Part shown: positions 29,293 through 37,683 of the stretch, piece after piece
Layout of the letters: every line of letters begins with the position of its first letter
Position numbering within the stretch: the stretch's first letter is position 1
DNA from: Sphingobacteriaceae bacterium
Lineage (GTDB): Bacteria > Bacteroidota > Bacteroidia > Sphingobacteriales > Sphingobacteriaceae
NCBI GenBank assembly: GCA_947458875.1
Contig: CANGZD010000005.1
Span: 1-64,000, forward strand
Direction of reading: 5' to 3'
DNA length: 64,000 nt
Notes under the pieces: model-generated
What the model was told of the DNA's origin: nothing
Seen by the model: the letters and a program-made list of their open reading frames with translations, nothing else
Database searches by the model: none
Program-made: the position numbers and the translations under genes

Positions 29293-29445
29293 AAAAAAGC
29301 GATCTGTTTCTATTTAATCTTGGACGATTTTAGTTCTTTCAAAATCGATCATTTAATTCAAATTAATTTTTATTACAATGGAGTCCAGCTACCATTTCAA
29401 AAACGGGGCGTGACTGAAAAGCCATATGAGTAGGTAAAAAGCATT

Positions 29446-30369: not shown

Positions 30370-30439
30370 TTAGATTTTGTCTTTGATCAGAAATAGCTTG
30401 AGGGGTCTCAGCTATAACTGACAAACAAATAAACCACTT

Positions 30440-30468
30440 AAAAGCACTTGCAATATGCAAGTGCTTTT
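30440..30468 (+). terminator. terminator after the SH3-like gene
   Basis: A perfect 13-bp stem (AAAAGCACTTGCA with TGCAAGTGCTTTT, loop ATA). It is symmetric enough to stop transcription from the minus-strand array as well. Confidence 0.85.
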
Positions 30469-30469
30469 G

Positions 30470-30853
30470 TTATTTACATAGATTTCTATGTGTTATTTGA
30501 TTCAACTGAAGGTTTTTTGTTTGTAACCTTTTTTCCTGAGCTTTTTTTGGCGTCTTTTCAGTTATTTTAGCCTGCTGCGCTGCTCCAAGCAGCTGGCCCG
30601 GGCTTAATCCTCTGGCTCCTATGCCGTAGGGAAGCATTTCTATGTTGCAGGGCGATAACTCTATACTGCAGGTTACCATTTCCATGTTGCAGGGTGCTAA
30701 CTCTATACTGCAGGTTGCCATTTCCATATTATAGGACGATAACTCTTTACTGCAGGTTATCATTACCATGTTGCAGGGCGATAGTTCCATGTTGCAGGTT
30801 GCCATTACCGTGTTGCAGGGTGACAGCTCCATGTTGTAGGTTGCCATTACCAA
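30470..30853 (-). other. open frame across the 21-bp array, Cys-heptad peptide; coding status uncertain
   Basis: The minus-strand frame is open over the array and translates into ten or more heptads with the pattern [MIT][EV][LM][SAV][PTS][CY][NS] (for example MELSPCN, TVMATCN, IELAPCN), so Cys falls every seventh residue. A basic tail of about 50 residues follows. The apparent start at 30853 is TTG; the first ATG is at 30847. No ribosome-binding signal or promoter is apparent and an in-frame stop lies at 30880. It follows the 241-residue gene by about 50 bases on the same strand. It may be a small repeat protein or only a by-product of a 21-bp repeat that happens to lack stops. Confidence 0.35.
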
Positions 30854-30872
30854 GTTGCAGGGCGATAGTTTT
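30621..30872. repeat. tandem array of twelve 21-bp units
   Basis: Twelve consecutive units of exactly 21 bp fill 252 bp without gaps. Most units begin with a version of ATGTTGCAGG or ATACTGCAGG. Two flavours alternate: one continues with GCGATAACTC-like sequence, the other with TTGCCATTACC-like sequence, giving a 42-bp higher period. Units are diverged (the 30621 and 30726 units most), so the array is old or under relaxed selection. It starts 33 bases beyond the stop of the 241-residue gene. There are no spacers, which excludes CRISPR. Confidence 0.92.
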
Positions 30873-30904
30873 ATACTTTACCTCAGCTTTTCCATATTTT
30901 CTAC

Positions 30905-31630
30905 CTACTTGGGTGTGAAACGGATACTCCTAATTTGTTTATATTCATTGCTCTCACTACCAAAAATCGATTTTACATAAGCCTTCATCATGGTCAGGGT
31001 ATTGGCCAGACCGTCGGGTAGGTCGTAAAAGGCATGATCACGAGCTAAACGGGCATTATGTAAGTCTGTTTCGGCTTGTAAAATGGCGAAGTTCTTCACT
31101 TTCAGTAGCTCGATATGGGCCTGCAGTCCGCTAAGTTTCAAATCAGCTTCATTAGGCTGATAGGCGGGCAAGGTGGCCACCAAGCCTACCAGGCCTTTGA
31201 GGTGTTCTACGAGGTTATCGTAGCTGGTTTGCGCTGAAGAGATGACTTGGGGCGGAGGTAGGGTTGGATCGGGCGGACTTTGTGGTTTGGATGCCCGCTG
31301 TCCTTGTATTTTTCGGTTAAAGGATTTGGCGGTTTCGAGGGTTTGTTGATCGGCTCCGGCAGCGATCATGGCGCTCAGGATTCGGGTGGATAGAGACCTT
31401 AGTGTGCTGAAGGCAAGTGTGCGTTTATCGACGGCCACCGCTTTGGCTACAAACTTTGCCTTCCAGTCGTCGAGCAGCGTTTGTGCTGCGGCAAATTGCA
31501 GATCGAGGTTGGCGGTGCTGAGTGCGCTATTGCCGGGATTATAAGCGGCGCCATAGCCTTTACAATAGCTAATGCCCTGTTGAAAGGCGGCCAGGTTTTT
31601 GGTGTTTCCGGTTTCTGATTGTGATGCCAT
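30905..31630 (-). CDS. all-helical protein of unknown function beside the 21-bp array
   Basis: The 241-residue product has no signal peptide or membrane helix. It looks like two helical bundles (about 35-112 and 128-230) joined by a Pro-rich linker (KPQSPPDPTLPPPQ, about 115-128). The first bundle ends AKSFNRKIQGQRASK, and the protein ends SNEYKQIRSIRF followed by TPK. Ala and Leu are abundant. I did not recognise a family. The Cys-heptad array lies directly downstream on the same strand, and the large NHL-repeat gene is divergent on the other side. Confidence 0.78.
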   Translation of the reverse strand: MASQSETGNTKNLAAFQQGISYCKGYGAAYNPGNSALSTANLDLQFAAAQTLLDDWKAKFVAKAVAVDKRTLAFSTLRSLSTRILSAMIAAGADQQTLETAKSFNRKIQGQRASKPQSPPDPTLPPPQVISSAQTSYDNLVEHLKGLVGLVATLPAYQPNEADLKLSGLQAHIELLKVKNFAILQAETDLHNARLARDHAFYDLPDGLANTLTMMKAYVKSIFGSESNEYKQIRSIRFTPK

Positions 31631-31956: not shown

Positions 31957-34900
31957 ATGAATAAAAGAATAACACACTACCTCAATATAACCATTATTGC
32001 CGCCGTCTTGTCTGTTTTGCTGAGTTCCTATACCCGGGGTTCAACAAACCACATGATGGTAGATAGGAAAAGTTCCACCAAACTGGAATTTTTTAAAACG
32101 GATTTACGTTCATTTTATTCAAAAAACGATTTTATAGCGAATAACAAATCTCCTTTCCCTCAAGCAAAAGCGCCTAAGTATTTAAAATCAGGCAGCCAAG
32201 TTAACTCAGCTTTCTTTTACAATACGCCGATTTTAAGGAGCAGCGGAACCTGCGGAGTTGCTAAATTGACGATTAGTGGCATCAATTTAGAGCAAATCAA
32301 CAGTATTGTCTGGAAAAATGGCACCACAACCGTGGGTACTATTGCTACCACAGGAGAGACGATTGCCGGAGGCAATGGCCGCTCGAGTGGTGCCAATCAA
32401 TTCAATAATCCAAGCAGTATTGCGGCTGATGCAGCCGGTAATATTTACATTGTTGATAGAAATAATCACCGAGTTCAAAGGTGGACACTTGGTACCAGCT
32501 TTGGCGTAACCGTAGCCGGAGGTAATGGTGCGGGGAGTAATGCCAATCAATTAAACAGTCCATCCTATATTTTCATTGACGCAGCTGGTAATCTTTTTAT
32601 TTCGGATACCAATAATCACCGTGTGCAAAGGTGGGCTCCTGGTGCAAGTTCTGGTACGACCGTAGCTGGAGGTAATGGCGCTGGCTCCGGCACCAATCAG
32701 CTAAACGGTCCTTCTGGGATTAGTTTTGATACTTCCGGCAACCTTTACATTGTAGATGCCAATAATCACCGAGTGCAAAGGTGGGCTCCTGCTGCAAGTT
32801 CTGGCACTACCGTAGCGGGGGGTAATGGTATAGGTTTAGCCTTAAACCAATTAAATTCACCATCTGATGTTTTTTTGAGAGGTAATAACTTCTTCGTAAC
32901 AGACTTAGGTAACCATCGGGTACTGCGCTACACTATAGGTAGTACCACTGGGGTATTGGTTGCCGGTGGAAATGGAGCGGGCAGCGATGCTCAGCAATTG
33001 AATTCTCCAAGAGGTCTTTCTGTAGATAATGCCAATAATGTTTTCGTTGCAGATGCCAATAATAATCGTATTCAGCGTTGGGCAGCAGGGGCTACAGCAG
33101 GCACTACAGTAGCAGGAGATAATGGGACTGGTATTGGGAACAATCAATTAAATTTTCCAAATGATGTGATACTGAACGCAAGCAATCAAATCTTGATTGT
33201 TGATACTAACAATAGCCGAGTACAGCGGTGGGGCGGCTTAGATGCCGATCAGCTCAGTTTTGAGGCCATTAATTCAGGAAGTTATACCGCCGAAATCACC
33301 TATAATGATTTTACAAAGGGAAACAGTAATTCATTAAATGTTACGGTTAATGCCAAGCCGGTTGTTCCGGCAATTGTGGGCTTGAGTAATTTGTATGTGG
33401 GACAATCGTTGAGGTTAACCAATGCCGCAACGGGTGGTACCTGGGCCAGTTCGAATACCCAGGTGGCCAGCATTTCGAGTACCGGTACCCTCATAGCGCT
33501 CAAAGCAGGGTATACCACAGTATCATATACCGTTACGGGTGCCAGTTCTTGTTCCACAAGCATCACTGCAAATATTCTGATATATGACATCCCGAAATTA
33601 AATAGCTCCAGTAATTGCGACACCGCTACTTTGAGTTTGGAGGGTCTTGTAGCCGAACAGGTACAATCTGTGGAATGGTTCAAAGATGGAAGCTCGGTTT
33701 CATCGGTAGCAGCAACTGGCACCACCATTGCTGGCGGGAATACTACTCAAAACATCCCCCCTAATGATGTTTATAATCCAAGAGGGGTTTTTGTAGATGC
33801 TGATGGTAATATCTATGTAAGTGATTCTGATAATGCGAGGATTCAAAAATGGGCGCCCGGTGCAAGCAATGCGGTAACGGTTGCCGGGGGTAATGGTGTG
33901 GGGAGTGCAGCCAACCAGTTTTCTACCATCAATGATGTATTTGTGGATCCAAGCGGTAATATTTATGTGTCGGATGCCGGGAATGGACGTGTGCAGCGCT
34001 GGGCCCCAGGTGCAAGCTCAGGTACGACGGTCGCAGGAGGAAACAATGCTCAGGTTTCGGATATAGAGGTGGGCAGTCCGGTAGGTACTTTTGTTGATAA
34101 AAATGGGAATGTATACGTTTCTGATGCATTCACCCATCGAGTGATGCGCTGGGCCCCTGGAGCTACTTCGGGGGTGGTAGTTGCAGGGGGCAATGGTGCT
34201 GGGAGCGCTACCAATCAGTTGAACTCCCCTGGAGCAATCTTCATTGATGGTCAAAATAATCTCTATGTCGCCGACCGGCAAAATTATAGAATTATGAAAT
34301 GGGCTTCAGGTGCTTCAAGTGGAACTAGGGTAGCTGGAGGTAATGGAGCTGGAAGTACTGCAGATCGGTTCTTGTCGGTGACGTCTATTTTTGTTGATGC
34401 ATCTGAAAACATATACATCACTGATAATTTGGCAAATGGTCGAGTGATTAAATGGCCTTCCGGAGCCTCAAGTGGTGTAATTGTTGCCGGAGGAAATGGT
34501 ATTGGTACGCAGACCAATCAATTATATGGTTCATCGGGCGTATATGTTGATAATTCCGGTAATGTAATTGTAAGTGATTATAATGGAAGAGTATTGCGCT
34601 GGGCACCCGGAGCCACTGCCGGGGTATTAATTGCTGGCGGGAATGGGACTGGAAGTGGTGCTAATCAACTTGGGGGTCAAAGTTCGATTTGGTTAGATGC
34701 CAGCGGTAATCTTTTTATATCTGATTTAGTTAACCACCGTGTTCAAAGATGGTCGGTAGGGGCTACCTCAGGAGTCACTGTTGCCGGTGGTAATGGTTCC
34801 GGTTCGGCTGGAAATCAATTTAACAATCCTCAAGGTATTTATGTGGACGTAAATGGAAATATTTTTGTAGCCGACAACAATAATAATCGGGTGCAACGTT

Positions 34901-37683
34901 GGGCTCCGGGTGCAAGCAGTGGTACCACCGTAGCCGGTGGTAATGGGTATTTGAGCAGGGCTAATCAATTGAGATTTCCTTCGGGGATTTATGTGGATAA
35001 TGCGGGTAATGTATATGTAGCAGATGTAAATAATCATCGTATACAGCGATGGGCTCCTGGCGCTACATCTGGGGTAACCGTAGCTGGTGGTAATGGACTC
35101 GGTTCGGCAAACAATCAACTTTCAACCCCTACTGGTGTGTATGTGGATGCTAATAATGCCATCTTTATTGCTGACAGAAATAATCACCGTATTCAAAAAT
35201 GGAATCAAGGTGCAACTACCGGGGTGACGGTGGCTGGAGGAAATGGCCTTGGCAGTGCGGCTAACCAATTAAATTCCCCCGGCAGGGTAAGCTTGGATGC
35301 TGCCGGAAATATCTACATCAGTGACAACCTCAACTATCGTGTTCAAAAATGGGCGCCAAACGCTACAAGCGGGACTACCGTTGCCGGTGGAAATGGTTTC
35401 GGTAGCGCAGCGAATCAATTTTCCAGCCCTTTTGGATTGTTTGTAGATGCAGTAGAGAATATTTACGTAACCGATGTGTCTAACCATCGGGTGCAGAAAT
35501 GGGGGGCAGCGAGCAATGTTGGAATTACCGTGGCTGGTGGGGGTGGCTTTCGCTCAGCTGCCAATCAGTTGAATACTCCGGTAGGATTGGCTTTCGATTC
35601 TAAAGGCAACTTGTATGTGGCCGATGCCAATAATCACCGTGTACAACGCTGGGCTCCGGGTGCAAGTTCAGGTGTAACGGTAGCAGGTGGAAACGGTTCT
35701 GGAAATGCCGCTAATCAGCTTTCTAACCCCTATTCGGTTTTCGTTGATCAAGCTGATAATTTATACATTGCCGATCGCAATAATCATCGGATACAAAAAT
35801 GGGCGCCGGGTGCAACAAGCGGAACTACTGTGGCCGGTGGTAATGGATTTGGTAGTGCTGCTAATCAATTGTCCAGCCCTTTGGGGGTACACCTAGACTC
35901 TGATGGCTACATCTATGTGGCAGATCAAGGTAATCATCGTGTACAAAGATGGATACAGGGTTCGGGTTCTGGGGTAACTGTGGCTGGCGGAAATGGAGCT
36001 GGAAGTGGTTCTAATCAGCTTCAGGCACCTTCAGGGATTTTTGTAGATGCTTCTAAAAATATTTATGTAGCAGATTTATCAAACAATCGCATTCAAAGAT
36101 GGGCACCTGGTGCATCCAATGGAACTACAGTTGCTGGAGGTAACGGTTATGGCTCCAATCCAAATCAATTAGCTTCTCCATCAGGGGTGTATGTGGATGT
36201 ACTAAATAATGTTTATGTAGCTGATCAATTTAATTCTAGAGTGCAGAAATGGCCGGTCAATTCGACCATCGGCATTACCCTGGCTGGTGGCAATGGTTAT
36301 GGTGGAGCTGCCGATCAATTAAGTTATCCAGGAGCGGTATTAGTTGATAAAGATTTTAATCTATACGTTTCGGATATTAATAATTTCCGTGTTCAAAAAT
36401 GGGGTGGTACCAATGCTTCTGCATTTAAATTAGCCAATGCTAAATCTGGTACCTATCGTGCAGAAATCACGTTTAATAATGGATCGCAATATGTTACCAA
36501 TACCAAAACCATATTCCCTTTAGAAATACCTACTATTACTACCTCAGGCGCCACTACATTTTGTGCTGGCGGCAAGGTAAGCTTAACGGCAAGCGAAGGC
36601 AGCAGTTACTTATGGAGCACCGGAGCCACCACGCGAAGCATAGAGGTAAGTACTGCAGGCAGCTACACGGTAAGAGTAACGAACGCTAACGGCTGTAGTG
36701 CGACCAGTACGGCTACAGCTGTAACAGTAAGTGCTTTCCCTGTAGCTACCATTACCGCTTCTGGCCCGACCACGATCACCCAAACGGGGAATGTGGTATT
36801 GAGTGCGAACACGGGCACCGGCCTGAGCTACCAGTGGTTTAGAGATGCCGTAGCAATTAGTAATGCAACGAGCGGTACCTTCACGGCCAATACCGCAGGC
36901 AGCTACACGGTACGGGTAAGCAATGTCACCGGCTGCCAGACACTCTCTGCCCCCTTGGTGGTAAAGACAGTATTTGTTTTACCGGTAAACAATTACCAGC
37001 TGAACATAGAAGGAGAGACCTGCCGCACGAGCGATAACGGGAGGATCCGTATCTCTGCGGTGCAGAACCTAAACTATACTGCCACGTTGAGCCGATTAGG
37101 TCAGACCCTGAGGACGACCACTTTCACGACGGTTACCGAGCTGACCGGTCTGTCTGCCGGTAACTACAGCCTGTGCATTACCGTAGCTGGCCAAGCCGAG
37201 TACAAGCAGTGCTACGAGCTGGTCATTACCGAACCCCAGGACCTGTCGGTATACACCCAGCTGAACCCGGTAAACAATACCATCGATCTTAACATGAGTG
37301 GCAGCGATAGCTATACCATTACTCACAACGGTAAGACCTATACCAGTAGGCAAGCCCGCATGAGTCTGGCCCTGGAATCGGGACGGAATACCATACAGGT
37401 AAATACCACAAACGCCTGCCAGGGCAGCTATACCGAAGAGATCTATATCAGTGAAAAAGTAGAAGTATACCCCAACCCCTTCAGCAGCACACTGAACCTG
37501 AAGATTGAGAACCAGGAAGGCAAAGAGCTACTGATCAAAGTACACAACGGATCGGGTAATACCGTGTATCAAGGCATGCACCGTGTGCACAACAACCTGA
37601 TTAAGCTTGACCTCAGCGAATTAGACAACGGCTACTACTTTGTCATTATTGGTAAACAGACCTATAAAGTAATTAAACAATGA
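31957..37683 (+). CDS. giant secreted NHL-repeat protein with T9SS sorting domain
   Basis: The 1908-residue product has an N-terminal signal region (about 1-30). It contains 24 NHL-type repeats of about 50 residues (consensus VAGGNG..S..NQL..P.G..VD..GN.YVAD..NHRVQRW). Six lie at about 135-430 and eighteen at about 587-1481, separated by a bacterial Ig-like (Big_2) domain (about 465-545). Two more Ig-like domains follow (about 1523-1671), then a region of unknown fold, and a type-A T9SS C-terminal domain (EVYPNPFSSTLNLKI to the end). It should be exported by the Sec and type IX systems and fixed on the surface or released. A function in adhesion or ligand binding is inferred. Its stop overlaps the next start (ATGA). 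Confidence 0.92.
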   Translation: MNKRITHYLNITIIAAVLSVLLSSYTRGSTNHMMVDRKSSTKLEFFKTDLRSFYSKNDFIANNKSPFPQAKAPKYLKSGSQVNSAFFYNTPILRSSGTCGVAKLTISGINLEQINSIVWKNGTTTVGTIATTGETIAGGNGRSSGANQFNNPSSIAADAAGNIYIVDRNNHRVQRWTLGTSFGVTVAGGNGAGSNANQLNSPSYIFIDAAGNLFISDTNNHRVQRWAPGASSGTTVAGGNGAGSGTNQLNGPSGISFDTSGNLYIVDANNHRVQRWAPAASSGTTVAGGNGIGLALNQLNSPSDVFLRGNNFFVTDLGNHRVLRYTIGSTTGVLVAGGNGAGSDAQQLNSPRGLSVDNANNVFVADANNNRIQRWAAGATAGTTVAGDNGTGIGNNQLNFPNDVILNASNQILIVDTNNSRVQRWGGLDADQLSFEAINSGSYTAEITYNDFTKGNSNSLNVTVNAKPVVPAIVGLSNLYVGQSLRLTNAATGGTWASSNTQVASISSTGTLIALKAGYTTVSYTVTGASSCSTSITANILIYDIPKLNSSSNCDTATLSLEGLVAEQVQSVEWFKDGSSVSSVAATGTTIAGGNTTQNIPPNDVYNPRGVFVDADGNIYVSDSDNARIQKWAPGASNAVTVAGGNGVGSAANQFSTINDVFVDPSGNIYVSDAGNGRVQRWAPGASSGTTVAGGNNAQVSDIEVGSPVGTFVDKNGNVYVSDAFTHRVMRWAPGATSGVVVAGGNGAGSATNQLNSPGAIFIDGQNNLYVADRQNYRIMKWASGASSGTRVAGGNGAGSTADRFLSVTSIFVDASENIYITDNLANGRVIKWPSGASSGVIVAGGNGIGTQTNQLYGSSGVYVDNSGNVIVSDYNGRVLRWAPGATAGVLIAGGNGTGSGANQLGGQSSIWLDASGNLFISDLVNHRVQRWSVGATSGVTVAGGNGSGSAGNQFNNPQGIYVDVNGNIFVADNNNNRVQRWAPGASSGTTVAGGNGYLSRANQLRFPSGIYVDNAGNVYVADVNNHRIQRWAPGATSGVTVAGGNGLGSANNQLSTPTGVYVDANNAIFIADRNNHRIQKWNQGATTGVTVAGGNGLGSAANQLNSPGRVSLDAAGNIYISDNLNYRVQKWAPNATSGTTVAGGNGFGSAANQFSSPFGLFVDAVENIYVTDVSNHRVQKWGAASNVGITVAGGGGFRSAANQLNTPVGLAFDSKGNLYVADANNHRVQRWAPGASSGVTVAGGNGSGNAANQLSNPYSVFVDQADNLYIADRNNHRIQKWAPGATSGTTVAGGNGFGSAANQLSSPLGVHLDSDGYIYVADQGNHRVQRWIQGSGSGVTVAGGNGAGSGSNQLQAPSGIFVDASKNIYVADLSNNRIQRWAPGASNGTTVAGGNGYGSNPNQLASPSGVYVDVLNNVYVADQFNSRVQKWPVNSTIGITLAGGNGYGGAADQLSYPGAVLVDKDFNLYVSDINNFRVQKWGGTNASAFKLANAKSGTYRAEITFNNGSQYVTNTKTIFPLEIPTITTSGATTFCAGGKVSLTASEGSSYLWSTGATTRSIEVSTAGSYTVRVTNANGCSATSTATAVTVSAFPVATITASGPTTITQTGNVVLSANTGTGLSYQWFRDAVAISNATSGTFTANTAGSYTVRVSNVTGCQTLSAPLVVKTVFVLPVNNYQLNIEGETCRTSDNGRIRISAVQNLNYTATLSRLGQTLRTTTFTTVTELTGLSAGNYSLCITVAGQAEYKQCYELVITEPQDLSVYTQLNPVNNTIDLNMSGSDSYTITHNGKTYTSRQARMSLALESGRNTIQVNTTNACQGSYTEEIYISEKVEVYPNPFSSTLNLKIENQEGKELLIKVHNGSGNTVYQGMHRVHNNLIKLDLSELDNGYYFVIIGKQTYKVIKQ
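32362..33240 (+). repeat. first block of six 150-bp NHL repeats
   Basis: Six in-frame units of about 150 bp, each encoding one propeller blade with a GGNG start and an NHRVQRW-like end. Six blades can close one propeller. Confidence 0.9.
33715..36405 (+). repeat. second block of eighteen 150-bp NHL repeats
   Basis: Eighteen in-frame units of about 150 bp of the same type. Neighbouring units share long nucleotide words (for example around GTGCAACGCTGGGCTCCGGG), a sign of expansion by duplication. Eighteen equals three sets of six blades. Confidence 0.9.

Follow-up and report, generated by a model that had tools for sequence, protein, structure and literature searches.

What is a tandem array of 21-bp units doing directly behind the gene of a small helical protein, and is the protein involved with it? 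The question arises from a 64,000-nucleotide stretch of the genome of a Sphingobacteriaceae bacterium (contig CANGZD010000005.1, positions 1 to 64,000; referred to as the window). An earlier note, made from the letters of this DNA alone, had suggested that the array might encode a repeat peptide expressed with the protein, serve as an RNA or DNA target, or represent a chance minisatellite.

The array in the window and its surroundings

Direct reading of the sequence bore out the layout described before, i.e., twelve units that follow each other head to tail without gaps or spacers (Table 1), and the self-match score at lag 42 was 126, whereas none of 20 shuffled versions of the window exceeded 11. 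Two unit types, aGAgcTATCgCCCTGCAACAT and GGaAATGgcAACCTgCAgcAT on the sense strand of gene A, alternate and form a higher-order repeat of 42 bp. This true period had also been proposed earlier and was recovered by TRF (period 42, 5.5 copies, score 270, 30635-30867). The outermost units of the array are degenerate. The gene for the 241-aa protein has its stop codon at 30905-30907, which leaves 32 bases between gene and array.

The inverted repeat past the array is the sole terminator-like repeat at this locus, and none occurs between gene A and the array. It was called as a terminator on the plus strand only; as the repeat is a near-perfect palindrome, it could, judged by its sequence, also terminate a minus-strand transcript of gene A and the array. 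On the plus strand, an Rfam DUF805 RNA motif (RF03081, 79 bits, 29373-29440) ends 5 bases before the start of the 29446-30369 gene, whose product has apparent membrane helices and a weak SH3_3 match; a DUF805 domain was not found in it. Gene A is adjoined by a plus-strand gene (31957-37683) for an NHL-repeat protein of 1908 aa that has a sorting domain (Por_Secre_tail) at its C terminus.

Table 1. Coordinates of features at the array locus, with the strand and the basis of each assignment.
Feature	Position	Strand	Basis
Inverted repeat past the array, with an intrinsic-terminator score on + (for the 29446-30369 gene)	30439..30469	.	Terminator scan
Open frame of 127 aa across the array, with Cys heptads; considered spurious	30470..30853	-	ORF list; array-class coding test
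Array of twelve 21-bp units, two alternating types, non-coding; core CCTGCAACAT (sense)	30621..30872	-	TRF, direct reading, coding test
Open frame of 74 aa across the array, with YCRLPFP-like heptads; considered spurious	30694..30918	+	ORF list; array-class coding test
Family A gene, encoding a basic, all-helical protein (241 aa) with two tandem four-helix units	30905..31630	-	ORF, homologues, AlphaFold2

An unnamed family of basic, all-helical proteins

The window protein has no match in Pfam or NCBIfam and belongs to an unnamed Bacteroidota family, here called family A. That the protein is all-helical, as read before from its sequence, was confirmed by a confident AlphaFold2 model based on 44 homologues (mean pLDDT 91.8, pTM 0.79), in which the four-helix unit is present twice in tandem. 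When PDB and BFVD were searched with this model by Foldseek, nothing matched at E<=0.001, and no fold match in these collections hinted at DNA binding. Family A proteins are basic, with a median pI of 9.4. Homologues were identified in 16 of 100 relatives, in 43 of 401 genomes of the order and, at the level of the phylum, in 9 of 395 genomes, indicating a sporadic distribution. They occur in the named genera Flavobacterium, Epilithonimonas and Paradesertivirga and also in MAGs that carry the labels Ignavibacteria, Saprospiraceae and Chitinophagales. Cultured strains that possess both gene A and an array include Flavobacterium limnosediminis JC2902 and Paradesertivirga mongoliensis KCTC 52859. 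Searches of 72,556 plasmid records, with one family member as query, and of phage records yielded no match for family A.

Arrays of constant unit length are linked to family A genes

To determine how regularly an array accompanies the gene, all distinct family A homologues whose downstream sequence extends for 350 bp or more (96 loci) were counted, and arrays were sought within 800 bp downstream of gene A by the best lag in the range of 8 to 69. A downstream array was present in 74 of the 96 loci, which share descent and do not amount to 96 independent trials, and the best lag was 21, 42 or 63 in all 74. Multiples of 21 bp thus do follow the gene in relatives, and the suspected link between array and protein turned out stronger than had been guessed. 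The median distance between gene and array was 87 bp, and the arrays had a median length of 262 bp, corresponding to about 12 copies. In several of the remaining 22 loci, an array is located upstream or is weak. Among seven further near-full-length loci found later, four have a downstream array, two an upstream array and one has none. Near some family A genes (L309, L312, L314), arrays with periods of 45/46, 52, 24 and 8 replace or accompany the 21-bp array.

For comparison, the part of the window's own genome that was read (1.52 of 1.74 Mb) contains 11 tandem arrays, 8 of them with lag 21, 42 or 63, or about 9 when a weak array beside a paralogue is added. At 8 such arrays per 1.52 Mb, a random 800-bp stretch would carry one with a frequency in the order of 1% or less.

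Between loci, the unit sequence is variable and the unit length constant, and after clustering the A-linked units fell into 41 dissimilar types. Unit similarity tracks protein identity, from about 0.3 (below 45% identity) to 0.36 (50-60%), 0.53 (60-80%) and 0.91 (above 80%), and paralogues within one genome have unit types no more alike than their protein identity predicts (p=0.69). Therefore, gene A and array are inherited together. Genome-wide homogenization of units is left without support by the paralogue comparison. The linkage across the phylum and the constant length are not explained by a chance minisatellite, the option that the earlier note would have fallen back on.

The array class shows no coding signal and no signal of sense-strand RNA structure

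A codon-phase test on unit variation in 67 arrays gave no signal (p<0.05 in 1 of 67, median p 0.51). Of these arrays, 38 have a sense frame that is open throughout, as compared to 33.3 +/- 3.4 expected when unit columns were permuted. In many homologous arrays the best frame is interrupted by stops, and some carry single-base indels (e.g., L052). Thus, the frames that had drawn attention in the window, with Cys heptads on the minus strand and an open plus strand, do exist, but the array class to which they belong shows no sign of coding, and a repeat peptide was ruled out by the codon-phase and open-frame tests.

The predicted fold energy of the sense RNA was no different from that of column-permuted arrays (mean z -0.15), and a structured sense RNA was set aside on this ground. 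The antisense RNA had a somewhat lower fold energy (mean z -1.07), for which base composition and G-U pairs may be the cause. In 22 of 70 loci, an intrinsic terminator is located between gene A and the array, so that the array there is probably outside the gene A mRNA; its presence within this mRNA is thereby ruled out as a general rule.

Unit conservation shows a moderate 10.5-bp rhythm and a conserved polarity

A length of 21 bp corresponds to two turns of the double helix. In the conservation across the unit, determined for the 41 dissimilar arrays, the strongest harmonic was found at 10.5 bp and accounted for 0.212 of the variance, as compared to 0.101 after permutation (z 7.8), while period 3 in the same profile was at chance level. 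Against smoothness-matched surrogates, this excess shrinks to a z of 2.7-3.5, and the rhythm is therefore graded as moderate. It is also present in the B-linked arrays, which comprise few unit types though, and absent in eight solo arrays. In the window array, the 10.5-bp harmonic (0.14) is not dominant.

The 41 dissimilar A-linked units have a weak consensus in common, approximately AnCtGcAntTaTaAAAcTngC. Its information of 5.31 bits decreased to 4.24 +/- 0.16 when strands were flipped at random, demonstrating that the polarity of the unit relative to gene A is conserved. Together, the moderate 10.5-bp periodicity and the strand-polar consensus make helically phased double-stranded DNA the best reading of what would be recognized in the array.

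Arrays occur away from gene A and beside other gene families

In one genome of the same genus, family A gave no hit even at E<=10, yet 21-bp arrays are present. Arrays can thus persist in the absence of protein A, which was ruled out as a requirement for them. Beyond the view of the earlier note, related arrays with lag 21, 42 or 63 and differing units lie at eight places in the window's own genome. While the link between array and gene stands, arrays found apart from the gene, or in a genome lacking it, speak against a simple pair of protein and own array. The solo arrays are intergenic, and several of those in the own genome (C2, C5, C8, C11) are flanked by convergent genes. Among them is the strongest 21-bp array in this genome (C11:12451-12942, about 23 copies), which has no family A gene in its vicinity.

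A second unnamed gene family (family B, 178 aa) was found in 22 of 301 genomes. In about 24 of the 30 B loci listed, from a related genus, an array ends about 230-246 bp (around 243 bp) upstream of the B start codon, and the spacer is conserved in sequence and fixed in length across different contexts. The gene order in one genome is A, array, B. The AlphaFold2 model of protein B was unusable (pLDDT 44). Six genomes have a second array with the same unit as the A-linked one, usually upstream of B. Unit types of A-linked and B-linked arrays within a genome were uncorrelated in a permutation test (p=0.46), to which the idea of coevolution between gene-linked and unlinked arrays of one genome fell.

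DUF6261 (PF19775) resembles family A in its occurrence in Bacteroidota, its similar length, its apparently helical nature and the arrays beside some of its genes (L258, L260, L261, L263, L264). In contrast to family A, these arrays are located upstream, and the Pfam model does not recognize the window protein. The DUF6261 arrays have a period of 41 or 42, the former not being a codon multiple, and a CTGCAA or TTGCAA core in three cases. A single family A member matches DUF6261 (8e-5), and hhalign of the two families gave a weak result (E 0.018 over 90 columns, probability 2.6%), so that homology, as judged from sequence, is suggestive only. The one B protein and the one DUF6261 protein that were checked are both acidic. 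Nothing of use was found in the literature on DUF6261.

A possible DNA platform and its alternatives

We tentatively favor, as possible if somewhat short of probable, a reading of the array as a non-coding, helically phased DNA platform that would be bound by protein A. As each unit comprises two turns, every copy would present the same face of the helix, and the basic, two-lobed helical protein could bind the array cooperatively from one face, either alone or together with a general DNA-architectural factor. Such binding may regulate the protein's own locus or organize the local DNA. Since protein A is dispensable for arrays elsewhere, any such role would be local or replaceable. Direct binding is what we infer, with the basic nature of the protein and the 10.5-bp rhythm as indirect pointers. 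In favor of the platform are the linkage to family A with lags of 21, 42 or 63 throughout, set against the low background of such arrays in the own genome, the absent coding and sense-structure signals, the polar consensus, the terminators ahead of the array in 22 of 70 loci and the DUF6261 period of 41. The platform reading is challenged by the arrays in the genome lacking family A and by a rhythm that is not dominant in the window array and absent in solo arrays. The uncorrelated A- and B-linked units, paralogues whose units are no more alike than protein identity predicts, the lack of a fold match in PDB or BFVD that would point to DNA binding, and the acidic B and DUF6261 proteins also count against it.

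Alternatively, the array may be a fast-evolving satellite that travels with the gene as a hitchhiking or mobile module and has no function itself. This is unlikely but deserves serious consideration, as unit similarity follows protein identity, the family is sporadic, arrays without gene A exist, and the block of array and B keeps its fixed spacing in different contexts. However, a length fixed at 21 despite complete turnover of the sequence would be unexpected for such a passenger, as would a shared polar consensus and a linkage that persists across classes of the phylum, and family A was not found on the plasmid or phage records searched. Rather unlikely, too, is a repeat non-coding RNA transcribed from the array and bound by the helical protein, similar to a type III toxin-antitoxin system or an RNA sponge. 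The conserved polarity would agree with a transcript, bacterial satellites are transcribed in RNA-seq of Bacillus coagulans (PMC8625621), and no terminator separates gene and array in the window. Against this stand the sense-strand structure, which does not exceed that of permuted units, the terminators preceding the array at other loci, the position of arrays downstream of A yet upstream of B, and the 10.5-bp rhythm, which is not expected for single-stranded RNA. Of the RNA or DNA target considered in the earlier note, DNA is thus the better supported. That the intergenic arrays are BIME-like sites for topoisomerase or nucleoid proteins, with gene A as one neighbor of many, is improbable; the solo arrays between convergent genes would suit this role, but it gives no account of why most family A loci specifically should have an array. 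That the array codes for a small peptide of heptad repeats, produced together with the helical protein, is hardly credible in view of the absent codon-phase pattern, open frames at chance level, stops and indels, even though the window array is open on both strands.

Comparison with known systems

Plasmid iterons with their Rep initiators and parC-type centromere arrays are helix-phased tandem direct repeats beside a protein gene. Unlike these, the present arrays are chromosomal, and their unit sequence is not conserved. In addition, protein A has no known initiator or partition domain (Pfam, NCBIfam) and no fold match, and no extrachromosomal replicon carrying the family, as would be typical of an iteron-Rep system, was found among the plasmid records. 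Type III toxin-antitoxin systems (ToxIN, CptIN, TenpIN) also have tandem repeats beside a small protein gene. Their repeats are structured RNA upstream of an endoribonuclease, whereas the 21-bp units are without structure signal and downstream of an all-helical protein, whose model shows no ToxN-type endoribonuclease fold and has no structural match at E<=0.001. BIME/REP elements are intergenic repeats, often at gene ends; they are palindromic and interspersed, in contrast to the head-to-tail 21-bp units. A CRISPR is not indicated, as the array has no spacers and no cas gene occurred among the flanking proteins scanned.

On every feature tested, the arrays agree with the 20-21-nt bacterial tandem repeats that Subirana and Messeguer (2021; PMC8161180) described as a class constant in size but variable in sequence. 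In the excerpts available from that article, these repeats are described as non-coding, species-specific, present as several unrelated families per genome and enigmatic in function; their size is noted to equal two helical turns, and a protein polymerizing on the DNA, or small RNAs, are proposed. Likewise, the present unit is 21 nt or a multiple thereof, its sequence varies between loci and species at constant size (41 dissimilar types), the array class shows no coding signal, and several array families occur in one genome (eight places in that of the window). The excerpts name no protein or linked gene, and the authors' J Bacteriol 2020 paper may hold more. Family A, with an array at about three quarters of its loci across the phylum, makes the question of these fixed-length, free-sequence satellites testable at the bench, for which a single protein and a 250-bp DNA would suffice. 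It is conceivable, though doubtful, that family A represents a new DNA-organizing protein which would read repeat length and helical face instead of a fixed sequence and polymerize on 21-bp satellites, and would then be their first identified partner. With respect to the class as described in the excerpts, the link to one protein family with an array at most of its loci, the conserved polarity and the 10.5-bp rhythm appear to be new, and this rhythm of constraint provides a sequence-level signature that can be checked in other bacterial groups with such repeats.
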